Shown piece after piece: positions 4,870-17,447 of a DNA stretch of 20,242 nt; position 1 is the stretch's first letter, and the number at the start of each line of letters is the position of its first letter. The stretch is from the IMG/VR virus record IMGVR_UViG_3300034198_001115, positions 1 to 20,242 of that record; one strand, written 5' to 3'. This DNA is from a virus. Made by a program: the position numbers and the translations under genes. Below the pieces are notes generated by a model. That model was not told where the DNA came from, did no database searches, and saw nothing but the letters and a program-made list of their open reading frames with translations.

Positions 4870-6141
4870 TTACTTGTTCGAATTTGGTAAGTTTAGCGAA
4901 TGGAATGCAAGACCACCATATGACTTACCTGCGGCACCTGATTGGCGTGCACCTGACTTGCTACCCATTGGACGACCTCGGCCGCGTTTTTCTCCGGTTG
5001 GTTCAGCCTTTTTCTTTGGCTTGTCTTCATCATCTTCGTCATCGCCTTGATAAGACGTTCCATAAGTTCCCTTATGGACATACCGGCCATTCTTATATTC
5101 CATTTCGTTAATATATTCAATGAACTCACGATATGTAATCTTAGCCTCTTCTTTCATATGACCTGCTTTCTTAGCTGCATTTAAAACATCGGTGCGATCT
5201 TTATACGATCCATTAAAAGTGTCTTTAGTCAAGTGGGGTTTGTATAGATTATGATGTTCTGGTTTGATGTGCTTCAATAGAGCTGCACCGGCAGGATGCA
5301 TAGTATCATTAATATTAGCCTCTTTCATATCTTGTTTTGGAGGAGCCATTTTCTTTTTGATTTCGCCGGTGCCGGGTACTTCGTGATCTCCCTTTTCAAC
5401 GCCACTCTTATATACATTCTTACCTGTACTTGGGCTAACATAATAATCGCCTTTAGCATCTCGACCCGTACTCTTTACTTTGTACTTTTCGCCGCCCTCT
5501 TGAATACTTTCGACTTCTTCACCCATTCTTCTTTTTTTAACATCAGATAAAGGACTTTGTTGTATTCTTTTTCTCGATTTTTTAAGAGCATCTGAATATG
5601 CTTTATTTGTTTCTTTAGTAGATCTATTATCGCTACCGACCTGTAGTCTATTTGCTTGATCGTTATGCGCCTTTGCCGCTACAGCATTGCCTCTTTCAAA
5701 AGAATTTTGTCTTTTAGCTCTTGCAACCGCTGCTGCTCTAGCTGCTAGGTTAGAAGAAATCTCGTCGAGTCCTTCAACTTCTTCGTTGCGCTGCTTAGCA
5801 TAGTAAGCTGCAAGGGCTTGCTTCTTACGTTGTTCTTTAGACTTACCAGCAAACTTTGGATTATCACTATGCACAAAGTCATGGATCCAATCACCGGCAC
5901 TAGAGTCTTTACTGAGTACTTCATCAATCTGCTGTTCAGTCATTTGCTCGATGTCTTCTTTACGAAGCATCTTAAAGTCTTGAGCATCTAACTTACCATT
6001 TTTATTCTTATCAAGCTTGTGTTGATTGCCTTTTAGCTCTTCTTCCATATCACAACCGCACTTAGACATAGGTTTGTGACACTCAGGACACTTGGCTTCT
6101 TCATATAATCTTTTTTGCCAATCTCTGAAATTAATAGTCAT
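4870..6141 (-). CDS. Mosaic virion-type protein: Zn-ribbon, EF-hand, phage modules and AT-hook
   Basis: Protein of 423 residues made of small modules. The N-terminus MTINFRDWQKRLYEE resembles a capsid-targeting peptide ending in an (L)xE site. Residues 18-30 hold CPEC...CGC, a possible Zn-binding knuckle. Residues 44-55 (DKNKNGKLDAQD) are a canonical EF-hand Ca2+ loop. Residues 84-120 (DWIHDFVHSDNPKF... then ALAAYYAKQ) are a module I recall from marine T4-like phage proteins. Basic helices follow (130-205), then a second targeting-like stretch (ITYREFIEYINE, 335-346), an acidic linker, an AT-hook (KRGRGRPMG, 385-393) and the ending YGGLAFHSLNLPNSNK. The AT-hook should bind the minor groove of AT-rich DNA. 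An internal, DNA-associated capsid protein is the best guess. An AAGGA site precedes the ATG. Confidence 0.72.
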   Translation of the reverse strand: MTINFRDWQKRLYEEAKCPECHKPMSKCGCDMEEELKGNQHKLDKNKNGKLDAQDFKMLRKEDIEQMTEQQIDEVLSKDSSAGDWIHDFVHSDNPKFAGKSKEQRKKQALAAYYAKQRNEEVEGLDEISSNLAARAAAVARAKRQNSFERGNAVAAKAHNDQANRLQVGSDNRSTKETNKAYSDALKKSRKRIQQSPLSDVKKRRMGEEVESIQEGGEKYKVKSTGRDAKGDYYVSPSTGKNVYKSGVEKGDHEVPGTGEIKKKMAPPKQDMKEANINDTMHPAGAALLKHIKPEHHNLYKPHLTKDTFNGSYKDRTDVLNAAKKAGHMKEEAKITYREFIEYINEMEYKNGRYVHKGTYGTSYQGDDEDDEDKPKKKAEPTGEKRGRGRPMGSKSGARQSGAAGKSYGGLAFHSLNLPNSNK

Positions 6142-6197
6142 GTTTATTCCTTGCTTTAAGTTTCTTGTGCCGTTGTTATTGTTTAAAAGAATTCATC

Positions 6198-6644
6198 TTA
6201 ATCACCACTCTTCATGAATGATCTAAGCATCCATCCGTGTTTAGCATGGTGATCCAGTCTATCAGCGACAAAGTTAGCGAGCCCCTGATTACCTGCTGCA
6301 GTTGCAACTGCGAACACTTTATTTAGGGATTGGATAACTTGATTGTTTGCCGACAGAAGATTACCAAACATTTGCGCTGGGTATGAAGGCCGTGCAGTGT
6401 CTTCCATGATAGTCTTAAATGTATACATTTCTTCAAGACTTATTGGTGCATATTGATCGAGTGCGCGAATTTGTTCTGCCGTAGTATCAACTGCTTCGTG
6501 AAGTTCTGCATATAAGTCACCCAGAAATGAGTGATATTGCGCAAAGTCTCTTCCTTCTACATTCCAGTGATATGAGTGCGACTTAAAATACATGACAAAA
6601 GTATTGCCAAGTAATACTCGCATTGCTGCTGTTAATTCATCCAT
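6198..6644 (-). CDS. dps: Dps/ferritin-like DNA-protection protein
   Basis: Protein of 148 residues. Dps proteins form hollow 12-mers that oxidise and store iron using H2O2 and protect DNA. The ferroxidase pattern is visible: H26 in SYHWNVEG, H38 twelve residues later, D53 and E57 (VDTTAEQIRAL), matching His51, His63, Asp78 and Glu82 of E. coli Dps. The position of E. coli Asp67 is Gly42, with Asp43 beside it. The C-terminal helix (HHAKHGWMLRSFM) is also Dps-like. It lacks the long Lys-rich N-terminal tail E. coli Dps uses to bind DNA. An AAGAGG site (6657-6652) overlaps the stop of the preceding nucleotidyltransferase gene, and it lies among putative packaged proteins. It could protect DNA or scavenge iron during infection, or be carried in the virion. 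Confidence 0.88.
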   Translation of the reverse strand: MDELTAAMRVLLGNTFVMYFKSHSYHWNVEGRDFAQYHSFLGDLYAELHEAVDTTAEQIRALDQYAPISLEEMYTFKTIMEDTARPSYPAQMFGNLLSANNQVIQSLNKVFAVATAAGNQGLANFVADRLDHHAKHGWMLRSFMKSGD

Positions 6645-6656
6645 GTGTTTTCCTCT

Positions 6657-9620
6657 TTATCTTGACAATCTTTCTTGTTCGATCTTTCTGATCTTTGGAG
6701 CTAACTTCATTGCCATGCGATCAATAACCGCTTTACGAGCATGAATAGCTCTTTCGATCCGTTCTTTTTCTCCGACCGATAAAGTATTCAACGGTCTCTT
6801 GGCCATCTTAGTCTTCATCATCTTAATCGCTAACTTACGTGCTCGACTATTAATAGTGCTTGAACTAGAACGAGACTTTAGTGCAATCTTAATTCTACGC
6901 TCTCGCTTTGAAGCAGACTTGGCGAATCTTACTCTTGCTCTCATACGCTCGGTCCTGCTAAGTACTTCATTTAGAGTTTCTTCATTCATGCCTTTCTTAT
7001 CTTCTTTAACTTCCTCGCCGGTTTCAGCATCTACTAGAACTAGCTCATCGTCTTCATAAGCGTCGATAATATCGTCTAGAGTGTCAATATCATCAATCAT
7101 TGCATGTAATTCTTTTTCAATGTTATCGTCGTGTTCATGATCTTCTTCGGAGATATTTAGACCATCTTTATACACCGGATCTTTCTTTGCAAGCGGCGCT
7201 TCTTCATTTACTACACCGATGTAGTTATGATCGTGTACTTTATACCCTTTACGCTTATGGTGTGCAATAGCCGAATCTATTGCTTTTTCTTTACTATCGC
7301 CTTTAACGCGTACGATCTTTTCCATAGTTTCTTTACGCTTGCTCACCATAGGATGATGAGGATCGGCGACCGTTACGCTAACGCGGTGAACCTCTTCTTT
7401 TATTTCGTCTTGCTCATTAAGACCCATTGCTGCGGCAACCTTCTTGTCGCCGTATTTGTGGCGTAGATAAGCAGAGATAATATGATCTTTGCTACGGTAT
7501 TCAGATACATCGGAAACTCTACGTTGGTTTTTAATCATGTTACGCAGAGTTCCAATATCATACTTTTTCATAGCATCATATTCTTTTTTAATGTCCTGAC
7601 CTAACTCTTCGGTCATTTGACTATGCTTGTCTAGTAACTCTTTATTTTTAGCATAGTCAGTAGTCTTCATAGCAAACTTAGCAGTGCGCGCATTATTCAG
7701 GTGATATTCTTTGTTCTTATCATCGCCTCTTTCATGCGCGGCAATTGCTTTATCCATATGATACTTAAAAGAACCTTCTTCTAACTCAATTGATTCAGTT
7801 GCATACTTAATCTTTTGCTTACGGACAGAATGACTTTCGCTGCCCGAAGTCATTGAACTTCCGATTGCAATATCCTTGTTTTCGGCAGCCTTTTCAGTTT
7901 CAATATCTGAATCGTTTATCTTTGGAGTGCCGCGCAGAGTTTCTAACTTATCTGTCTGATCAGCCATATCTTGCTTTTCTTCATCGGGCGGAATAGCAAT
8001 CGCATTGCGTATTCGTGCAAGGCGTGTTCTCAATCCACTGGTATCTTTGCCGATAATAGAACCGGTTGCAATCTGTTCTAGAATATCGGAGATCTCTTCA
8101 TTCATTTTCTTCTTTTCGCCGATTACCTTATCGTCGCCTCTTGGTTGAAGTACTCCTTCGGCTGCCTTCTGAGGCACGAGTTTTTCATTATATCCAATAC
8201 CAGCTTCTTTTGCCGTAGCTAGCATGTTATGAAGAACACTCACATACTCTGGTCTCATTGGCATATTTCTACACTTACGTAGAGCATCGTTGACGAGTTG
8301 TTCTGGACTACTCTTCTTATCGACGTCTGCAACACCGAGAGTATTAGCAATGATGCGAGCAACCCTGATTTTATCCGCTGGTGTGAATTTCATTTCCTTT
8401 AAGCTTCCCTGTGAAATGTTCGATTCTGCAAAGTCTGAGCCTGCGGTGGCCATATTATAATTAGCTTCTAGAGCTTGAAGTTCATGCTCGTGCATGTGCC
8501 AGTAGTCTTCATGATGCATGAACTCCCCAATACGAAGAAGAGAATCGCGCGCCTTAGCATGGGCTTCTCTCCAAGCCTTTATTTCTTTTAAATCAGGAGC
8601 CTTGCCATCTTGAGCAAGATGTACATCGTTAATCTCCATATACAAATCTGTAGCTTTTAAAGCATTTAAGATTGCAACTGGATCATTTGGTATGAGGCCT
8701 TTCTTATACCTATCTATCGTACCTTGAAATGCTTTTGCAGCATCGGCCGAACGATCGAAACTCTTCGTGGTATAGCCTTTAAACGTAATCTGTTCAGGAG
8801 CATATCCTGGCTGAATGTCTTCTTCAATAGTTGAAACTGGTTCAACCATATTAATCCATTTCTTGGATATGTCACCTGATTCATTGACAACGGTGATATA
8901 GTTTGTGCCACGATCAATGATCTCGTATACGCCAGCATCGTCCCTTACGGATTCGCCAACATTGAATATTTCTCCGGCGTGGTATTTTTCTCTTAGGTCG
9001 GACTTATTAAACTCCACAGATTCTTTAATTGCATCTACACCCATTGCTTCACGCAGTTCATTCATTAGACGCTTAGCATCTTGAGTTGTAAGCGACGAAG
9101 GGAGGCCCTTCTTAAAAGAAGTAAAGTCCCCCTTCTTTGCGGCTTCTCTCATCTTAGTGCCTGACATACCTGATGCACCTTCTGCATCAGGATCACGCTC
9201 ACCGGCCGATACTACCTCAATAGTATCATAATGAAAGTCCTTGCCGTTGTACTTGTCTAGTATTTTTTGATATTCACCAACTCTATCAGAACCGGCAACC
9301 ATAATAAGGTTCTTATACTTTTTATTAAGAATCTTTACAGCTTCGATGAATGTACGAATCTGATCGTTTGCCGCAACAAAATTTGTATTGGGAAACATGC
9401 GCTTGAGATAGTAGACCTTACGATCTACCGGAAGCGGATTTGATTTACTGTCTTGACTACGAGAAGCATAGATGACATGATCTGCTTCTTGTTTCTGAGC
9501 AATATGCTTTACTGCCGCAACAAGAAGACCATGGCCAATCGTAGGAGGTTGATAACGACCAAAGGCGAATACAACCTTTTTACTAGGCAGTTCTTTAACT
9601 AACTGTCTGAATTGCTTCAT
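6657..9620 (-). CDS. Nucleotidyltransferase fused to a chain of virion-type modules (987 residues)
   Basis: Residues 15-175 are a cytidylyltransferase/NMN-adenylyltransferase-like Rossmann domain: FAFGRYQPPTIGHG (16-31; TxGH in place of HxGH) and the second signature GMSGTKMRE (151-159), with VAGSDRV at 108-114. It would transfer a nucleotide from an NTP; the substrate is not readable. After it come an SH3/KOW-like segment (about 210-258), helical modules (268-400, 411-500, 615-672, 673-734, 743-806), a very acidic module (825-875) and a strongly basic C-terminus (886-987, RTERMRARVRFAKSASKRER and on) suited to DNA binding. The N-terminus MKQFRQLVKE resembles T4 capsid-targeting peptides. The family core is usually about 160-200 residues, so most of this protein is added modules. 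A GGA site and a late promoter lie upstream. An injected virion protein acting on nucleotides or NAD is possible. Confidence 0.8.
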   Translation of the reverse strand: MKQFRQLVKELPSKKVVFAFGRYQPPTIGHGLLVAAVKHIAQKQEADHVIYASRSQDSKSNPLPVDRKVYYLKRMFPNTNFVAANDQIRTFIEAVKILNKKYKNLIMVAGSDRVGEYQKILDKYNGKDFHYDTIEVVSAGERDPDAEGASGMSGTKMREAAKKGDFTSFKKGLPSSLTTQDAKRLMNELREAMGVDAIKESVEFNKSDLREKYHAGEIFNVGESVRDDAGVYEIIDRGTNYITVVNESGDISKKWINMVEPVSTIEEDIQPGYAPEQITFKGYTTKSFDRSADAAKAFQGTIDRYKKGLIPNDPVAILNALKATDLYMEINDVHLAQDGKAPDLKEIKAWREAHAKARDSLLRIGEFMHHEDYWHMHEHELQALEANYNMATAGSDFAESNISQGSLKEMKFTPADKIRVARIIANTLGVADVDKKSSPEQLVNDALRKCRNMPMRPEYVSVLHNMLATAKEAGIGYNEKLVPQKAAEGVLQPRGDDKVIGEKKKMNEEISDILEQIATGSIIGKDTSGLRTRLARIRNAIAIPPDEEKQDMADQTDKLETLRGTPKINDSDIETEKAAENKDIAIGSSMTSGSESHSVRKQKIKYATESIELEEGSFKYHMDKAIAAHERGDDKNKEYHLNNARTAKFAMKTTDYAKNKELLDKHSQMTEELGQDIKKEYDAMKKYDIGTLRNMIKNQRRVSDVSEYRSKDHIISAYLRHKYGDKKVAAAMGLNEQDEIKEEVHRVSVTVADPHHPMVSKRKETMEKIVRVKGDSKEKAIDSAIAHHKRKGYKVHDHNYIGVVNEEAPLAKKDPVYKDGLNISEEDHEHDDNIEKELHAMIDDIDTLDDIIDAYEDDELVLVDAETGEEVKEDKKGMNEETLNEVLSRTERMRARVRFAKSASKRERRIKIALKSRSSSSTINSRARKLAIKMMKTKMAKRPLNTLSVGEKERIERAIHARKAVIDRMAMKLAPKIRKIEQERLSR

Positions 9621-9651
9621 CTTTATCCATCTATAAAAATATTAACTATAT

Positions 9652-9659
9652 TATTTATA
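9652..9659 (-). promoter_or_regulatory. T4-type late promoter TATAAATA for the nucleotidyltransferase unit
   Basis: Perfect TATAAATA on the minus strand in the 51-base gap between the tail fibre and the nucleotidyltransferase, 32 bases before the ATG at 9620. It matches the T4 late -10 element recognised by the gp55-type sigma, which needs no -35 box. Confidence 0.75.
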
Positions 9660-9671
9660 TGTACTTATCTT

Positions 9672-12600
9672 TTATTGACTACCAAAACCAAATATCCAAA
9701 CTCCACCGATAGCAGTGGTAGTGGAGAATACTTCAATCATCATACTATCCTGTGCTACACCGCCGCCGCCTAGCGCAAAGGTATTTTTGTTATTACTACA
9801 CTGGCTAGTAGTTACTCCGGTGAATGTGAATATATTATTAGCCGTGTGAGGCATAATAAAGATCTTGACTCTGCGGCCTGCCGTAAAGTTACTTAAAGTA
9901 ATCGCTCTATTACCATTCGCGCTGGGTTGCCAGAATATTACACTTGGGCCGGTAGTCATATCAACGGCCAGTGTGGTAATCTGTGTGGTAACTAGAGAGC
10001 TAAAAGCATCTACAGTAGTTGGAGTGGCACTGATAACACCACTGCTGATAGTGATACTGGTCCCGTCAACTTTGACTCCACCTAACACACTGGTTGTTGC
10101 TGTTGGTAATGTATATTCAGCTGGAATAGTTGGCTTGTTAGTTAAGTCGTTGTAATTACCACTGAATAGTGTTGGCTTGTTAGTTAAGTCGTTGTAATTA
10201 CCACTGAATAGTGTTGGCTTATTCTTAATAAAATCTAAACTAAGATTATTAGTTTGATTCCAGTCAGACTGTAACTGTGCAGCAGGAATAGTTGGCTTAT
10301 TGGTTAAGTCGTTGTAATTACCACTGAATAGTGTCGGCTTGTTTAGTATATAACCAGCAGCCGATGTATTTGTTTCTGTCCAGTTAGATTGAACGTGGGC
10401 AGATTGAGCAGGTATTCGGATATACTTTGTGCCATCATGGATAATTTGATCACCAACAGTATAGGCAACACTACCATTACCGAGATTTTGTGTTCCTGCA
10501 ACAGAAACAATATATTGCCAGCCATCTGTTCCGGTGGCATTACTTACGCTTGGAGTGTTAGTTGATGCATTCCATTCGCCTTTGAATACAACTGAACCTT
10601 CAATAACAGTTTCTGGAGCCCAGAAAAAATCCGTTCCATCTGTTTTTAGTAGATATCCAGCCTTACCAGTTGTACTTGGGAAATACTTTAGTCGTGAACC
10701 ATCTCTAAATGTAACACCAGAATTTACATTGGTCGTTCCAGTAAGAACTAAACCAGTATCATCTATCTTTGCGCTGGTTCCAATTGTAGTTGAATTAAGA
10801 GGAGTTGTTTGAAATACTACCTCTGTTCCAGCTGCAGAATCAGTAAATGTTTGTTTTGCTGCAAGAGCAATACGGCCAATGCTTGATACGAAACCAGTTG
10901 TTCCATATCCCTGAACGCTGATACGGAATAGTGTATCACCAGACTGAGTGGCAGTTGGAGCATCAACAGTACCACGAGCAGCACGACCAGCGATCAATGC
11001 ATATGTGTTGGTTGAACCACCAAATGTATCCATACTCACGCGAGTAGACTGACCATCTTGTCCGGTCAACTGAAGTAGAGTACCAGTAAAGTTTCTTGGG
11101 TATTGAGCACCAGTAGAACTACCGATAATGTTCAGCGCAGATTGAGTTGTGAGAAGAGTATCCGGTGTTGTAATCGTAGCAAGACCAGAACGAGCAACAG
11201 AAAAGGATTCTCTACCCACAGTTGTTTGTACCTTAATTGCACGATTGAATACAACATCGGCGGTTGCGCCTATAGATCCAATGTATACATCGCGTGCTGA
11301 ATCCTTGATCTGTAGCGTATTATCTCGAAGAACAAACTCACCAACTTCAAAACCGGCACCACCTTTGATATAGAAGTTACCAGCTTTAGCGCCGAGCGCT
11401 TGGTCATTACCAAGTGTTTCATCTTGAACGTAGATCGTTCCTGCGCCCATCCAAATCTCTTTAAATCGTTTTCCTGGAGTTCCTAGAGACCATACGTTTG
11501 TTGTATATGGAATAATATCTGAGTGAGGAACGATGTGTCCGCCAGGGCCGGCATTTAATACAATGTCGGTGTTTGAGGCTGTTGATATAGCAAGACCAGC
11601 ATTAACAATTGGCCGAGCAAAAGTAATTACTGTATTTTCTGGTGGGGGAGTTGCACCAACAGCAAAGTTTTTATCAGTAATGATAATTTTATTGTATATA
11701 CCAGAACCAACGAAAAGAATTTTACTTAGTACTGGGATTGCTGCACCACCAATAATATCATTTACCTGAAGGGCCGGTGATGGAACTTCTTTAAGTTCAT
11801 ATACTGCATATGGAACACCAGTGATACCATTAGTCAAACCATAGTCACCAATATCTAGAGCAGCAGAGTCGCCATGCTCAAGAACTGCATTCAAATTTTC
11901 GGCAGTAATATTTGCAATAATAGGAGACGTGCCAGTAAGAACAGAACCAACTGGAATATTTAATGCAGCGACTGTTATCTCATTAGTAGTTGTATTGCCA
12001 CGATCAGTTACAGAATCAAGAGTGTCAACCTCTTCTGTCAGATAGGCGGTATCATTATCTTCTGGCTTGTTCTTAATAAAGTCTGGTTTTGTATTATCCG
12101 TTTGATTCCAGTCTGACTGAATCTGTGCATCTGGAATAGTCGGCTTGTGCTTAATGTAGTCTAGTCTAGTATTATCGGCTTGCGTCCAGTCGCTTTGAAT
12201 CTGAGCTGGATAATCGATATCCTCAACTGCGGCAAATTCGAACTTCTTCTTGGTAGAGTTATATCTTAAGTATAAACCATTTGCAATCGTAGAACGATCA
12301 ATGTCGTCGAGGTAGCGAAGGTTTACTTCACCTGATCCGGGGCCCGCTGCGGATATCTTACCAACCCATTGCTCAAGAAACTTGAGTTTATTCGTGATTG
12401 CAGTAAGTTCCTTGCTAACTGGTTGCTCTATAGGATCTTGATAGGAGTGAGAGTCCTTTGGTAGAGATAAAAGATATTTTTCTACACCAATGCTACGTTC
12501 TTCGGGAGTCTTAACTTCAATTGGAGCCAACTCTTCGAGTGCTTCAACTTGCTCTAAGAGTTCTTCAATCTGTTCTGATTCGACTGTTTTATTTTCTAGT

Positions 12601-12785
12601 TGAGCAAATAGATTTGAGATATCCTTAGCGACGTTTTCACGCACCGATTGAATCATCTTTTGTTTTGGATCAGCTTTCTTTATTTCCGCAATTTGTTTAA
12701 ACATCGAAGACATATCTGTCTTCGTATTCTCTTTAATTTGTTCAAGTTGCTTTTGCTTAAGATCCTGCGATTTCAGTTTATCCAT
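9672..12785 (-). CDS. Long tail-fibre protein
   Basis: Protein of 1037 residues. Residues 1-115 are a charged coiled coil (LKQKQLEQIKENTKTD and on) that would trimerise or attach the fibre. Fibre repeats of the type SDWNQTDNTKPDFIKNKP start near residue 195 and recur near 815-905, mixed with 14-residue KPTLFSGNYNDLTN units. The middle (about 400-720) is beta-rich with segments I recall from other phage fibres (RFKEIWMGAGTIYVQDE; TGTLLQLTGQDGQSTRVS). The C-terminal domain (about 925-1037) ends in VWIFGFGSQ and may be the receptor-binding tip. It is the largest gene here and lies downstream of its own terminator-bounded gap. An AGGAT site precedes the ATG. No chaperone or adhesin gene lies immediately next to it. 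Confidence 0.85.
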   Translation of the reverse strand: MDKLKSQDLKQKQLEQIKENTKTDMSSMFKQIAEIKKADPKQKMIQSVRENVAKDISNLFAQLENKTVESEQIEELLEQVEALEELAPIEVKTPEERSIGVEKYLLSLPKDSHSYQDPIEQPVSKELTAITNKLKFLEQWVGKISAAGPGSGEVNLRYLDDIDRSTIANGLYLRYNSTKKKFEFAAVEDIDYPAQIQSDWTQADNTRLDYIKHKPTIPDAQIQSDWNQTDNTKPDFIKNKPEDNDTAYLTEEVDTLDSVTDRGNTTTNEITVAALNIPVGSVLTGTSPIIANITAENLNAVLEHGDSAALDIGDYGLTNGITGVPYAVYELKEVPSPALQVNDIIGGAAIPVLSKILFVGSGIYNKIIITDKNFAVGATPPPENTVITFARPIVNAGLAISTASNTDIVLNAGPGGHIVPHSDIIPYTTNVWSLGTPGKRFKEIWMGAGTIYVQDETLGNDQALGAKAGNFYIKGGAGFEVGEFVLRDNTLQIKDSARDVYIGSIGATADVVFNRAIKVQTTVGRESFSVARSGLATITTPDTLLTTQSALNIIGSSTGAQYPRNFTGTLLQLTGQDGQSTRVSMDTFGGSTNTYALIAGRAARGTVDAPTATQSGDTLFRISVQGYGTTGFVSSIGRIALAAKQTFTDSAAGTEVVFQTTPLNSTTIGTSAKIDDTGLVLTGTTNVNSGVTFRDGSRLKYFPSTTGKAGYLLKTDGTDFFWAPETVIEGSVVFKGEWNASTNTPSVSNATGTDGWQYIVSVAGTQNLGNGSVAYTVGDQIIHDGTKYIRIPAQSAHVQSNWTETNTSAAGYILNKPTLFSGNYNDLTNKPTIPAAQLQSDWNQTNNLSLDFIKNKPTLFSGNYNDLTNKPTLFSGNYNDLTNKPTIPAEYTLPTATTSVLGGVKVDGTSITISSGVISATPTTVDAFSSLVTTQITTLAVDMTTGPSVIFWQPSANGNRAITLSNFTAGRRVKIFIMPHTANNIFTFTGVTTSQCSNNKNTFALGGGGVAQDSMMIEVFSTTTAIGGVWIFGFGSQ
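10129..10212 (-). repeat. Two perfect tandem 42-bp repeats in the tail fibre
   Basis: Bases 10129-10170 and 10171-10212 are identical, coding the 14-residue unit TLFSGNYNDLTNKP. Perfect DNA identity beside diverged fibre sequence indicates recent duplication or recombination. Confidence 0.92.
10291..10332 (-). repeat. Third, slightly diverged copy of the 42-bp fibre repeat
   Basis: Matches the tandem copies with about two base changes, separated from them by one SDWNQTNNLSLDFIKNKPT-type unit. It gives a substrate for slippage or unequal recombination that would change fibre length. Confidence 0.85.
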
Positions 12786-12795
12786 GAACTATCCT

Positions 12796-12826
12796 AAAAA
12801 GACAACTGCACCGAAGTGCAGTTGTC
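12796..12826 (-). terminator. Intrinsic terminator with UUCG tetraloop ahead of the tail fibre
   Basis: Perfect 11-bp stem (12826-12816 with 12811-12801: GACAACTGCAC / GTGCAGTTGTC) closed by a C(UUCG)G tetraloop, then TTTTT on the minus strand. It lies after the Tyr-rich gene (stop at 12852) and its T-tract runs into the AGGAT ribosome site of the fibre gene. Confidence 0.9.
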
Positions 12827-12851
12827 GTGTCTACCGTACTTATGTTATTTA

Positions 12852-13448
12852 TTAATAACGATACAGGTTGTATGGCGTATATGGATATGGGCGTCCAAAC
12901 TGGTCAAAATATGGACGACCTAAGGTGTCATATAGTGCACGACCATACTGGTCATAATATGGATTCGATGGAATAGGGTAACCTGGATACACAACAGTTC
13001 TAGCTAGAAGAAGACTTGGAAGTGGCGCAGATGGTCGAACATAAACTATCAAGCGCGCTAGCTGAGTCTTATAATTCTGAATGCGTTGATTTGCTTGATC
13101 AATATAACTTATATAAGCGCGTGCTGTAGCGGTGTTAGCATATGGATGAGCTAAAACCCAGTTGATGCCATAGGCATTGGTGTAAACATTATTATAATTT
13201 GCTTCGCCGGTTCTATAAGCACTTTGCCAACTTAGAATTCTACTTTCATCGTTCTTGATAGCATTTATTAGCGAATTAGCAGTAGCAGTATTAGAATAAA
13301 CAACCTGTTGTGTCAGATAGTAATTCGAATTAACATACGGGTTATTCATAGTAAGGAGCTGAGGAGGAACCGAAACGGTTAATCTACTTAGAATAGCCGG
13401 TTGAGGATATCCTATTGCTCCGAAAAGTTGATTTTGAAAAATTAGCAT
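12852..13448 (-). CDS. Tyr-rich hypothetical protein with short YD/GRP repeats
   Basis: Protein of 198 residues, not recognised. Residues 45-145 are helical and rich in Asn, Tyr, Thr and Ala (NTATANSLINAIKND; TARAYISYIDQANQRIQNY). A hydrophobic, Pro-rich segment follows (146-160). The tail (162-198) is dominated by Tyr with three units of type YDxxGRxxY: YDQYGRAL, YDTLGRPY, FDQFGRPY. These resemble the core of YD-repeats in Rhs-type proteins but with a period of 8-9 rather than about 20 residues. There is no signal peptide or anchor. It has its own late promoter 76 bases upstream, an AAAGGAT site and a strong terminator, so it is probably a monocistronic late gene upstream of the fibre. Possibly a structural or fibre-associated protein. 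Confidence 0.7.
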   Translation of the reverse strand: MLIFQNQLFGAIGYPQPAILSRLTVSVPPQLLTMNNPYVNSNYYLTQQVVYSNTATANSLINAIKNDESRILSWQSAYRTGEANYNNVYTNAYGINWVLAHPYANTATARAYISYIDQANQRIQNYKTQLARLIVYVRPSAPLPSLLLARTVVYPGYPIPSNPYYDQYGRALYDTLGRPYFDQFGRPYPYTPYNLYRY

Positions 13449-13523
13449 TTTGAATCCTTTTTGTTATTAGATAGGTCAACGTGATTCATAATGTACGTCA
13501 TAGTAAAATCATATTCACTGATT

Positions 13524-13531
13524 TATTTATA
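13524..13531 (-). promoter_or_regulatory. T4-type late promoter TATAAATA for the Tyr-rich gene
   Basis: Perfect TATAAATA on the minus strand in the 98-base gap after the mosaic protein gene, 76 bases before the ATG at 13448. The rest of this gap is AT-rich and holds a small inverted repeat near 13537-13550, with no gene seen. Confidence 0.7.
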
Positions 13532-13546
13532 TCAAATTGATCTTGA

Positions 13547-15160
13547 TCAACAGTTCCACTTTCTCAGCGCTTTATTAATTCGCGAATCAGGATCACGCGC
13601 AGTTTCGGCAGAAGTTAAACGCTTCTTCATTCCACCCATGCGAGCACAGAATGATTTACGACGATTAGCCGCCTTACTTCCTGGCTTTAATTTCGAAGGT
13701 TTTGTAGTCACCGCTGTTTGCAAATTGCCTCCAGTCTTACGATTATAAGCATCTACACCTTTTTGAGTCAGACCACCTTCGGATGACTTATACCCTTTCG
13801 AATCAATTGCGTATTCAAGTAATTCCTCGTCGGAAACTTCTTCTAGCTTTTCCCAGAGTATTTCTGAATCAACATTATTAATCAGAGCTAATTCTTCGAT
13901 AGCACTTTCGATTAAATCAAACTGCGCTTCTAGTTCTTCCATATTTGGTTTGCTAAAAGAATCGAAATGCGCTTGTGCTTCTTTTTTAGATTTATGTCTG
14001 TGAATCTCGCCAGTTGGAGTTGTAACTTTCCATTCAACATGGTCAGTTGTTCTTCCTGAAGGATTGGTTGTTCTTTCAATCTTTGGGGTAGTCTTTACTA
14101 CTGGTCTAACATATTTTTTGAATTTATCTAAGTCTGCTGCTTCATTCATGTCTTCACCGAGTTCTTCTCTAGACTGAAGGTAATCTCTTACACAGGTAAT
14201 ATAATCTTGTGCTAGTGTAATCTTAGATTGAACCCACTCGGGCATGTTTTCTTCATCATTTAGCATATCAATCAGGTCTTTTGAATTTCTAAGAATAGTC
14301 TGTAACTGAGTTCGTGCCATCTGACCTTCGTAGTCATACTCACCGCTGTCAATAGCTTTAACGGCTTCTGCAATCGGGTGAAACATATAGTCAACATCTT
14401 CTGGTACACAATTGGGCACCATCTTATTACCTTTCTTTTTTACACCAACTTGCTTATAACCAACCCAACAAGCTTCTAGAATCTCTTCGTCTATGCTTTC
14501 ACCATACATCGCGTGATATTTAATAGTATGCTTGCTCGGCTTAGTCTTTGCCGTAGCATCACCCGGAGCTGGTTCATATGCGGATGGATCACTATCACTT
14601 TTATTATCCATCTTTTTCCAGTGAGCTACTCTAGCTCTAGCAGTAGAATCACTTAATCCTTTGTGATAAGCTTTATTATCTATTCTTGAATCTTCATCAA
14701 CCAGCGCTTCTCCAAACTCATGACCAGCAACGCGCTTCATTTGCGCATTGAATTCGCTTTGAGATGGTTTTTCTTTATAAAGTTTTATAGAGATCTCTGG
14801 TCTTTCTTTACCCTTAATTCTCCAGTTGTAACCCTTTTCTTTATGATCTGCATCAGTAGTTTTTACAACTCTTCTTTTATACCCCGATTCCCACGATTCC
14901 GATTCATCTAACTCTTCATGTAAGTCTTTATCTGCTCCATGATATGTTCCCTTACCTTTTGTTATGTAAGAATTTACTCGAGCCATACCCCATTGCTGAG
15001 GTGTTGTGCCAGGGCGATGGCCAGAATTCCAAGCTGCAACGCCACGACGATATACTTTACGCAGCGTGTTAATTGATATACCAGACTTTTCTGCCTTTGC
15101 ATCTAGACCAGCCTCTGCGGTCTCACATATTACATCTACGTAATCTTTAAACGCGATCAT
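13547..15160 (-). CDS. Mosaic virion-type protein of five or more small phage modules
   Basis: Protein of 537 residues. The start is set at 15160, not 15169: 15160 gives an ATGA overlap with the preceding gene and an AAGGG site at nine bases, while at 15169 the same site touches the ATG. N-terminal MIAFKDYVDVICET is capsid-targeting-like, with IxE at residues 11-13. Modules by residue: 25-80 (NTLRKVYRRGVAAWNSGHRP; TPQQWGMARVNSYI), which I recall as DUF5824-type; 158-220 (AHWKKM; TKPSKHTIKYHAMYGE); 231-253 (CWVGYKQ...PNCVPE); 275-330 (GQMARTQLQTIL; EWVQSKITLAQDYI); 372-402; and 458-537 (GLTQKGVDAYNRKTGGNL; RRKSFCARMGGM; RINKALRKWNC), which I recall as DUF6321-type. No enzymatic motif is clear. 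The basic C-terminus suggests DNA binding inside the capsid. Confidence 0.78.
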   Translation of the reverse strand: MIAFKDYVDVICETAEAGLDAKAEKSGISINTLRKVYRRGVAAWNSGHRPGTTPQQWGMARVNSYITKGKGTYHGADKDLHEELDESESWESGYKRRVVKTTDADHKEKGYNWRIKGKERPEISIKLYKEKPSQSEFNAQMKRVAGHEFGEALVDEDSRIDNKAYHKGLSDSTARARVAHWKKMDNKSDSDPSAYEPAPGDATAKTKPSKHTIKYHAMYGESIDEEILEACWVGYKQVGVKKKGNKMVPNCVPEDVDYMFHPIAEAVKAIDSGEYDYEGQMARTQLQTILRNSKDLIDMLNDEENMPEWVQSKITLAQDYITCVRDYLQSREELGEDMNEAADLDKFKKYVRPVVKTTPKIERTTNPSGRTTDHVEWKVTTPTGEIHRHKSKKEAQAHFDSFSKPNMEELEAQFDLIESAIEELALINNVDSEILWEKLEEVSDEELLEYAIDSKGYKSSEGGLTQKGVDAYNRKTGGNLQTAVTTKPSKLKPGSKAANRRKSFCARMGGMKKRLTSAETARDPDSRINKALRKWNC

Positions 15161-16389
15161 CTTTGCCATCCCTTAAGTATATCTGGTGAGAAATTATTCT
15201 TGCTGAATTCCATACGATCTACAATCTTTACCGCGCCGCCTTTTAGGTGGTCGATTGCTACGAAGCCTTCAACGCCGGTTGCTTTAAATCCCGATGAAGT
15301 CTTAATAAACGTGCTTATGTGTCCGGCCTGATTCATCTTAGCGATTATAATCGCTTTGATGTCGGCAATCATGTTTGATATTTCAAATATCTTTACGATA
15401 TCTTCTTGAGGATGATTCGCAAAGAAAGACATAATCTTCTTGCGCTTCTCCTCTTTTCCGAATTTAGATTTCTCGGTCTTAAGAGTATCAATCTCTTTCT
15501 GAAACTTTTCGTATATCCAGTCAAATAACCCCTTTACATGTGCTTTCGTATCGGTTATCTTCTCGCCGCTTCTTACCTTACTGTTATTATATGTCTTGAC
15601 TAGAGTTAGTAGTTCCTCGTCGTTGCTTATAGCGTTTAGAGTTGCGGCATTGATCTTCTTAAACTCAGAGCCTAGGTCCGATAGCATATCGGTAACTTTC
15701 TTAGTCTCTGCAGCCGTGAATGTCGCTGTTCCAGAATAGTCCTTATAGTTAGCATCATCCATCCATACGCTTGGCACATGGGTCATCTTTGATGCAATTG
15801 CCTGACCAAACGATGCCTTCATCGTCTCAAACGATGAACCAGTATATGTGGTATGCCATACTATACCAATATTTGATTTTCTAATTCTTCTTGCAAGCTC
15901 TGAGTCGGCCGGTACAGCATAGACAATAGTATTAGGATGGAAGGTTATATATTCTACATCATCTATAACAACCTTATTGATGTCTTCCTTTGTAAACATC
16001 AGATCACCTTGATATACACCGGACTTAATGCCAAGCTTCTTAAGTTCGGTTAGTGCTATCTTTAACTTATCGGCTAGATCGCCCGATGTATCTGCATCGA
16101 TTTCAGCTGGTGTTTTATATACCTTTGGCTCTTTGTTAAACACGCCTTTCTTTGCAACAAAAAACTTACCATCGCGTGGATCTACGCCTGCAAAGATTGC
16201 TGGAGCTCCATCCCACTTAACCGTTGCTGTAATCTTAGACGACGAGTGACCGGCAAGCATATCTCTTAAATCACGAAGAAAGTTAATTGCCTGACGAGTG
16301 CCATTAACGCCAGCATTGAAGACTAAGTCCTCAATGTGTTCCATATGAGTATTCTTTTCTTCAGTAATATAATTCTGTGAAGTAATCAT
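15157..16389 (-). CDS. Nucleotidyltransferase/ligase-fold protein (DUF6267-like)
   Basis: Protein of 410 residues with the motif set of covalent nucleotidyltransferases (DNA/RNA ligases, capping enzymes): motif I KWDG at 58-61, where K58 would take AMP or GMP; motif III-like GVYQGDLMF at 124-132; IV-like VEGFVAID at 373-380; V-like AVKIV at 386-390. The N-terminal MITSQNYITEEKNTHMEHIEDLV is notable: the first ten residues align with the T4 capsid-targeting peptide MKTYQEFIAE, with an IxE cleavage-type site. The start at 16389 lacks a good ribosome site; an in-frame ATG at 16344 (MEHIEDL) is possible but would remove that peptide. A long helical insert (about 225-340) separates motifs. Similar proteins in T4-like marine phages are annotated DUF6267. 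A nucleic-acid ligase or end-repair role is likely, with substrate unknown. It overlaps the mosaic gene by ATGA. Confidence 0.82.
   Translation of the reverse strand: MITSQNYITEEKNTHMEHIEDLVFNAGVNGTRQAINFLRDLRDMLAGHSSSKITATVKWDGAPAIFAGVDPRDGKFFVAKKGVFNKEPKVYKTPAEIDADTSGDLADKLKIALTELKKLGIKSGVYQGDLMFTKEDINKVVIDDVEYITFHPNTIVYAVPADSELARRIRKSNIGIVWHTTYTGSSFETMKASFGQAIASKMTHVPSVWMDDANYKDYSGTATFTAAETKKVTDMLSDLGSEFKKINAATLNAISNDEELLTLVKTYNNSKVRSGEKITDTKAHVKGLFDWIYEKFQKEIDTLKTEKSKFGKEEKRKKIMSFFANHPQEDIVKIFEISNMIADIKAIIIAKMNQAGHISTFIKTSSGFKATGVEGFVAIDHLKGGAVKIVDRMEFSKNNFSPDILKGWQR
15170..15174 (-). promoter_or_regulatory. Ribosome binding site AAGGG deciding the start at 15160
   Basis: AAGGG on the minus strand, nine bases before the ATG at 15160 but immediately against the alternative ATG at 15169. 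With the ATGA overlap it favours the shorter protein. Confidence 0.65.
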
Positions 16390-16394
16390 TTTAT

Positions 16395-17447
16395 TTAATC
16401 GCTGTACTTAACGAAAACGCTACTATTAGTAGTAGAGGAAGATGCATAGTTATATAACCATCCAGCTACAGCATTTTGTTTATTGGAAGCAAGAACAGTG
16501 TATGTAAAATAGACACCTAAGTACTTAGACATCCACCAAGTAGGATCGATCTTTGCCATAGTCATTGTCTTTTGCACGATATCTTTTTTACTTTCTTTGC
16601 TATTAGATATATCTAAATACATTTCGGCGAATTTAGTTGCAATCGGTGCGGTGACCGGTGCTAGAGGATTAAATTGATTAGGCATATTAACACTAGGAAT
16701 ACCCGATTCTTTAGCAGCTCTAATCAAAAGACCCCCACCAATCTTACCTCCTGAAGCAGACTTACCTTTAATCTCTCCTTGCCAGCTTGAAGTAACTGGT
16801 CTAGAAGAAAAGTTACGTAATTGAACTCTTGCTTCTTTTCCATCAAATTCTAAATCCCAATATACGTCCTTAGATGCTGTAACATCTGTCATCGCTTTTA
16901 CTTCTTTAAATTTTGCGGCGGGAGGCTTTCCATCATTAAATATTTTGCTATGAGCGGGACCCTTTGGAACTTTCTTCAGAGATATACCAATAAGTTGTTT
17001 ATTTTTAAATTGATCGTATATGTATTTGTTATAATCTTGTAAAGTGTCAAATCCTGTTTTATTTTTATGGCCACTCTTTATAGCCCATATGTCTGCTGGA
17101 TTCCATTTGTCTTCTCCAGACAATCCACTTGTGGCTTTAAATCTTCTAAATTCGGCATATACTTCTTCCACCTCGGAACTTCCTCTATGGAAAATATATC
17201 CGCTATTAATAGAAAAATCTTTAAATATTAAATTTGCAGTAACAACTACGCTGTGAAACCACGCAGAATCTAGTCCTTGAACACACTGTTGTAGTGTTCT
17301 ATCGCATTTTGCAGCTTTAGTATTCTTTTCAGTCAGCTCGGCAGCAGAATCTAAATCTTTACCTTTAAACTGCCGTGCTGCGCATGCATATGCTTGCAAA
17401 CTTTCTGCTAAAGCCGTTACCTCGGCTCCTGCTCCAGATTGTGCCAT
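16395..17447 (-). CDS. Conserved phage protein with possible PD-(D/E)xK-like core
   Basis: Protein of 350 residues, first gene of a late unit. Residues 1-60 are Ala/Gln-rich and helical. Residues 92-122 (SEVEEVYAEFRRF then KWNPADIWAI) and 151-160 (QLIGISLKKV) form an E...D...(S)LK pattern compatible with a PD-(D/E)xK nuclease core with Ser at the usual Asp/Glu position. SWQGEIKGKSASGGKIGGG (221-239) is a Gly-rich stretch I recall as conserved in related phage proteins. The C-terminal half is helical (TWWMSKYLGVYFTYTVLA) with Ser/Thr-rich residues. The start is supported by a GGGA site and two late promoters 25-38 bases upstream. It is five bases from the ligase-like gene, so a DNA end-processing or packaging pair is possible. 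The nuclease call is weak. Confidence 0.7.
   Translation of the reverse strand: MAQSGAGAEVTALAESLQAYACAARQFKGKDLDSAAELTEKNTKAAKCDRTLQQCVQGLDSAWFHSVVVTANLIFKDFSINSGYIFHRGSSEVEEVYAEFRRFKATSGLSGEDKWNPADIWAIKSGHKNKTGFDTLQDYNKYIYDQFKNKQLIGISLKKVPKGPAHSKIFNDGKPPAAKFKEVKAMTDVTASKDVYWDLEFDGKEARVQLRNFSSRPVTSSWQGEIKGKSASGGKIGGGLLIRAAKESGIPSVNMPNQFNPLAPVTAPIATKFAEMYLDISNSKESKKDIVQKTMTMAKIDPTWWMSKYLGVYFTYTVLASNKQNAVAGWLYNYASSSTTNSSVFVKYSD

Follow-up and report, generated by a model that had tools for sequence, protein, structure and literature searches.

The N-terminal peptides shared by four proteins of a virus fragment are, with high probability, capsid-targeting sequences (CTS) of the T4 type, borne by payload proteins that an aquatic, T4-like phage would carry into its host. 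The window, that is the whole stretch of DNA analysed here, is a 20,242-base fragment of a virus record, and its substantial genes lie on the minus strand without exception. A peptide of the same design is found on many other proteins of related phages, and homologues of several window proteins are described from the virions of cyanophages.

Shared N-termini in the window

The first-pass annotation had likened four N-termini between positions 4870 and 16389 to the T4 internal-protein peptide and predicted their packaging in the head. Each of the four peptides stands at the N-terminus of a minus-strand open reading frame, and the span is the correct one for the four genes (Table 1). The mosaic of DUF5824 and DUF6321 modules, here called the 540-aa mosaic, has 537 residues when counted from its start at 15160. 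An alternative start (MAK, at 15169) leaves no space for a ribosome site, and the one at 15160 is preferred to it, its ATG being preceded at a distance of about 9 nt by AAGGG.

The peptides were scored with a profile of the DUF6267 N-termini of other phages against about 13,800 internal methionines. The resulting empirical p-values are listed in Table 1, where that of the 423-aa mosaic is reached only with a one-residue shift and a broader profile. Other window genes tested with the profile gave p 0.028 (a tail fibre) or higher. By this measure the likeness to the T4 peptide is not a matter of chance, and the full peptide pattern in the window is beyond chance.

To judge from their residues, all four peptides are degenerate and among the weaker tags. 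The N-terminus of the DUF6267 protein retains Tyr7, Ile8 and Glu10, with Ser4 instead of Leu or Phe. That of the 540-aa mosaic (MIAFKDY...) has Phe4, Tyr7 and Val8 and lacks Glu10, a Glu being displaced to position 13. The hydrophobic or aromatic residues at positions 4 and 7 are kept in the cytidylyltransferase and the 540-aa mosaic, and are shifted by one in the 423-aa mosaic. An (I/L)xE site had been reported for three of the four N-termini and is indeed present there (ITE, ICE and LYE), the fourth, in the cytidylyltransferase, being VKE. As a cleavage site at residues 8–10, ITE fits, VKE is near, and ICE and LYE are displaced. Since 23.7% of the genes in related phages have an (I/L)xE within residues 6–16, the motif alone is weak evidence, and with this background of about 24% it was dropped as a stand-alone argument.

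Relatives of the window proteins carry intact forms of the tag. Those of the cytidylyltransferase start with MKKLRQFIKE, MKNFKQLIKE or MKQFKQLIKE, each followed by the same LPSKKVVFAFGR, and include the intact forms MKQFKQLIKELPSKKVVFAFGR and MKNFKQLIKELPSKKVVFAFGR. A related DUF5824 protein (locus L173) begins with MNNFKDHLIE/GALADKAKKSGIS, the slash here and below marking the putative cut. Relatives of the 423-aa mosaic begin with MKSYTQFLEALKG, MSINFKQFSEALVG and MKSYKEIAEALKG.

Table 1 Positions of tagged proteins, their N-termini and neighbouring features in the window, and of features in related loci (p, empirical)
Feature	Position	Strand	Evidence or remark
DUF6267 protein, likely ligase-like, 410 aa	15157..16389	-	PF19782, E 2.2e-106; K58-x-D-G61 invariant
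CTS-like N-terminus MITSQNYITE of DUF6267	16360..16389	-	p 0.0005 vs internal Met
Mosaic protein of DUF5824, CW-GYK and DUF6321 modules	13547..15160	-	Pfam, PHROGs
CTS-like N-terminus MIAFKDYVDVICE of the DUF5824/DUF6321 mosaic	15122..15160	-	p 0.009
Possible internal gp21-type site ILE/A before the CW-GYK module	14474..14482	-	sequence; weak
Cytidylyltransferase-like multi-module protein, phrog_3041/395, 987 aa	6657..9620	-	phrog_3041, E 5.6e-75
CTS-like N-terminus MKQFRQLVKE of the cytidylyltransferase (Phe4, Leu7, Val8, Glu10)	9591..9620	-	p 0.0023
EF-hand-like, cysteine-containing mosaic, 423 aa	4870..6141	-	PF13499 weak, below cut-off
Weak, shifted CTS-like N-terminus MTINFRDWQKRLYEE of the 423-aa mosaic	6097..6141	-	p 0.011 with shift only
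Second, internal CTS-like peptide ITYREFIEYINE of the 423-aa mosaic, aa 335-346	5104..5139	-	score 8.5
phrog_1462 protein, 350 aa, without CTS, adjoining DUF6267	16395..17447	-	phrog_1462, E 4.2e-54
Dps/ferritin-like gene	6198-6644		PF00210, E 4.9e-20
Tagged FDIDDT family	L128:8321-8923; L006:9375-9992 and similar		HAD-phosphatase-like, below Pfam cut-off
Tagged Acb1	L302:9800-10306 (also L081:9342-9848); L303:9171-9701		PF23474 above cut-off
Acb1-related protein of phiAS5	L309:298-795		
Acb1-related protein of Ci1	L308:301-783		
T4 gp61.1	L282:18966-19130		best T4 match to the tag
S-CREM2 gp12, Cas9-like virion protein	L278:7704-10313		tag-like peptide at residues 17-25
S-SCSM1 gene 93, DUF3008 virion protein, 69 aa	L312:36627-36836		C-terminal CTS-like peptide

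The peptide pattern across related phages

We retrieved 80 relatives of the DUF6267 protein, whose N-termini follow M[KL]x[LF]K[ESTDN][YF][IL]xE, then EKN. In an alignment of 28 relatives, among them those of Stenotrophomonas phage DLP6 and Methylophilales phage Melnitz, Glu10 does not vary. A PWM trained only on 33 N-termini of DUF6267 relatives, with the window's own excluded, was applied to the genes of 264 related loci at a threshold of 12 bits. This was reached by 178 of 5,670 N-terminal ATG candidates in non-DUF6267 genes, a few DUF6267 proteins having passed the filter, as against none of 13,925 internal methionines. Because many of the 178 are mutual homologues, the safer count is that of protein clusters with at least one tagged member, which number 54 (BLAST E 1e-5, 50% coverage); unrelated cargo families are fewer, since some clusters share modules (cytidylyltransferase, DUF6321). 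The cluster representatives match ten Pfam families.

These clusters share the N-terminal pattern and differ downstream, and conservation ends after Glu10. When each cluster is represented by a single member, residues 2, 4, 5, 7, 8 and 10 are rich in information, with 3.6 bits at position 10, and from position 11 onward the values are only 0.3–0.9 bits. Choosing the proteins by the profile biases the values within residues 2–10 and does not affect the drop that follows. Glu10 occurs in 49 of the 54 clusters, partly through the same selection. The conserved tag positions 4, 7, 8 and 10 are those assigned by mutagenesis of the T4 CTS, in which residues 4 and 7 serve targeting and residues 8 and 10 processing (PMC9026906).

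Phage T4 served as a control. The DUF6267-only profile recovers IPI, IPII and IPIII, whose CTS gp21 removes (Mullaney and Black 1996, reviewed in PMC9026906). Of the 1,562 candidate starts, the three with the highest scores are, in order, gp61.1, IPIII and IPII; IPI comes fifth, after one spurious antisense frame. In lambda and P-SSP7, no start reaches 4 bits with this profile. The best T4 match, gp61.1 (MKTFKEFIKE/D), stands above IPII and IPIII. The literature searched, which took in few subscription journals, held no report of its packaging and, on CTS in cyanophages, nothing beyond the T4 review.

Prohead protease and putative cleavage sites

A prohead protease gene, which the first-pass annotation had proposed to look for in the full genome, was found in the relatives and is absent from the window, a 20-kb fragment that holds no gp21. 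Peptidase_S77, the gp21 family, is above cut-off in all 14 of the 14 long, near-complete relatives. In the major capsid proteins of these relatives, L[FN]E (ALNE, ALFE, QLNE) stands at the expected end of the delta-peptide, which accords with the same protease specificity, the cut sites being putative assignments. Internal [FYW][ILV]xE sites in tagged proteins number 6 against 12.6 expected (O/E 0.48, p 0.008), compared with an O/E of 1.08 in untagged proteins; because several motifs were tried, we take this avoidance as supporting evidence only. By analogy with T4, the window proteins would be processed by gp21.

Proteins that bear the tag

The DUF6267 protein is likely to be ligase-like. K58 and the DG of its KxDG motif, which is typical of ATP-dependent ligases, are invariant in 28 relatives. 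The AlphaFold2 model has a mean pLDDT of 73, with values below 50 for residues 1–16 and low values around the motif. Its VIA-align neighbours are mostly RNA and DNA ligases at Z 5.0–6.8, a range below the level trusted alone and thus suggestive only. Foldseek with the model gave no significant match (best E above 0.6), and a sequence search of solved structures gave none. No paper on DUF6267 was found in the literature searched, of which few subscription journals formed part. PHROG 455 joins DUF6267 and the cytidylyltransferase in one profile of 764 positions. In some relatives, L006 and L007 among them, the gene immediately upstream of DUF6267 belongs to a tagged FDIDDT family, and this adjacency to a ligase-like protein suggests that the two may form an end-healing and sealing pair. 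Within the window, the Dps/ferritin-like gene between two tagged genes is the sole one in a DNA-binding PHROG, and it is itself untagged.

CTS-like N-termini also occur on the anti-CBASS nuclease Acb1 (MKSFKSYLTE/Q, MKTFKDYLIE/S) and on Acb1-related proteins of phiAS5 (MIRSFSEFITE/A) and Ci1 (MKTFAQLVEE/L). Acb1 of T4 itself (57B, MMEFKDFSTG) retains Phe4 and Phe7 and lacks Glu10. A wider scan of viral contigs for tagged Acb1 returned no more than three close copies, together with a distant relative that is untagged. The tagged Acb1 predicts an anti-CBASS enzyme that would be injected.

Internal copies of the peptide

As an addition to the CTS reading, the large mosaics might be polyproteins, in which internal CTS-like peptides or LxE sites would let gp21 cut the modules apart in the head. 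We consider this doubtful. Such peptides do stand immediately ahead of internal modules, as TFKSFVAE/HCWPGYK in L241, PFKTFVDE/CWTGYK in L129 and SYKDFITE/IKLADLP in L211, L103 and L094; the window's ITYREFIEYINE/MEYKNG, ahead of the C-terminal module of the 423-aa mosaic, is alike in position. Virion protein 93 of S-SCSM1 has a tag copy at its C-terminus (TFKEFLEYIE), to which the window's internal peptide also corresponds in position. Before the CW-GYK module, [IL]xE is found in 11 of 29 internal and 23 of 48 N-terminal cases, and the reversed motif in 6 and 4. Against this, internal CTS-like peptides at 15 bits occur in only 6 CTS clusters versus 2 in reversed sequences, and [IL]xE shows no clear enrichment ahead of internal modules. 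Polyprotein processing was rejected as the main reading, since internal [IL]xE is unenriched overall in tagged proteins and strong internal sites are avoided by them; it is kept as an add-on because the internal counts are only somewhat above those of reversed sequences.

Tagged proteins in cyanophage virions

The virion proteome of cyanophage S-CREM2 has been published (PMC10665884). Of the five proteins that reach at least 8 bits among the 219 genes scored, four are detected virion proteins, and tag and detection are associated (Fisher p 0.012 with the threshold at 8 bits and 0.0008 with it at -1 bit). These four are the cytidylyltransferase (MKNFSSFLTE/A), gp13 (MKDLHSFLTE), an APH-like kinase (MKRFDAFLTE) and a SAM hydrolase (MKDFDSFLEE). 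The Cas9-like gp12 has a tag-like LRFASFMAE/A following a 16-residue extension. In two further cyanophages, the virion NMN adenylyltransferase (NMNAT) of S-SCSM1 begins with MKSFLQFLKE/A (PMC9602691) and the virion cytidylyltransferase of S-SM1 with MKKFSAFLNE/A (PMC3037559).

The cytidylyltransferase/NMNAT proteins of these three phages are homologues of the window's 987-aa protein and belong to its family, phrog_395/3041. Their tags are canonical and end in E/A; in the window protein, which is far longer, the site reads VKE. The passages of the three papers give no targeting signal for the enzyme. Gene 90 of S-SCSM1, annotated there as a virion protein beside the NMN adenylyltransferase, is of the same family as the window's phrog_1462 gene, and gp137, listed for S-CREM2 virions, has a DUF6321 domain like that of the 540-aa mosaic. 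Three window families are therefore known virion components elsewhere. Detection of DUF6267 in virions was not found in the portions of published proteome texts searched.

Purified particles analysed by mass spectrometry do not reveal whether a protein lies inside the head. The detected proteins could have reached the virion by another route, being tail-associated or surface-bound, or could be contaminants, the peptide then being an amphipathic helix with some other role; we judge this improbable. The virion-detected neighbours 89, 90 and 92 of S-SCSM1 lack an N-terminus of this kind, so that either the tag is not the sole route of entry or some detections are carry-over, which the authors mention as a possibility after CsCl (PMC9602691). 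Contamination or another route is at odds with the detection of cytidylyltransferase/NMNAT in at least three cyanophages, and with a peptide whose end is a gp21-type site and which is like the tag proven in T4. Least probable of all is that the N-termini have no role as a protein signal and go back to a common 5' end of the genes, whether by recent duplication, by recombination or as a start that enhances translation: an exchange of gene starts is plausible because several tagged genes are neighbours, but the constraint acts on the protein exactly at residues 4, 7, 8 and 10 and all conservation is lost after residue 10, the peptide recurs independently in the T4 internal proteins, and it is associated with virion detection in S-CREM2.

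Discussion

We postulate that during head assembly the ten-residue peptide would dock the cargo to the prohead core through residues 4 and 7, which are hydrophobic or aromatic. A gp21-type prohead protease would then cut after Glu10, acting through residues 8 and 10, and the cargo would be left inside the DNA-filled head and enter the host with the genome. From the likeness to T4 we infer that the cargo docks to the core, is cleaved and injected, and acts early in the host. The window would hold part of a payload locus that encodes the ligase-like DUF6267 protein, the multi-module protein resembling cytidylyl- and NMN-adenylyltransferases, and DUF5824/DUF6321 mosaics. Packaging, as predicted in the first-pass annotation, is well supported at the level of families by the many cargos, the T4 positive control, gp21 in all 14 long relatives and the homologues in virion proteomes. 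For the window's own proteins it is only partly supported, because of Ser4 in DUF6267, the missing Glu10 in the 540-aa mosaic and the shift in the 423-aa mosaic.

The tag agrees with the T4 CTS in its ten-residue N-terminal form, in having a hydrophobic or aromatic residue at both 4 and 7, in Ile or Leu at 8, in Glu10 and in the Ala that often follows the cut, and the window's relatives encode a gp21-type protease. It differs in that position 5 is nearly always Lys, that copies occur also within mosaics and at their end, and that the window's own tags are degenerate. Its cargo consists of enzymes and multi-module proteins, whereas that of T4 consists of small basic proteins. The head proteins of SPN3US and other giant phages likewise have N-terminal propeptides cut by a prohead protease, but these are mostly longer than 100 residues and do not follow the T4 pattern (PMC5694885). 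In uncultivated T4-like phages, the T4 capsid-targeting system probably serves a cargo that is broader than, and different from, that of T4.

More tentatively, and with somewhat less than even confidence, we propose that T4-like phages of seas and lakes load a variable arsenal with one swappable ten-residue tag, internal copies of which may let gp21 release modules in the head. This arsenal would comprise the ligase-like DUF6267 enzyme, cytidylyl- and NMN adenylyltransferases, Acb1 and dozens of uncharacterised modules. If this is true, counter-defence as well as nucleotide and repair enzymes would act ahead of any phage gene being read. The pattern offers an explanation for the repeated occurrence of cytidylyltransferase in cyanophage virions. 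As a predictor of unknown phage proteins that travel in the particle and are the first to be delivered, it points in T4-like phages to dozens of uncharacterised families and to the immune-evasion enzyme Acb1.
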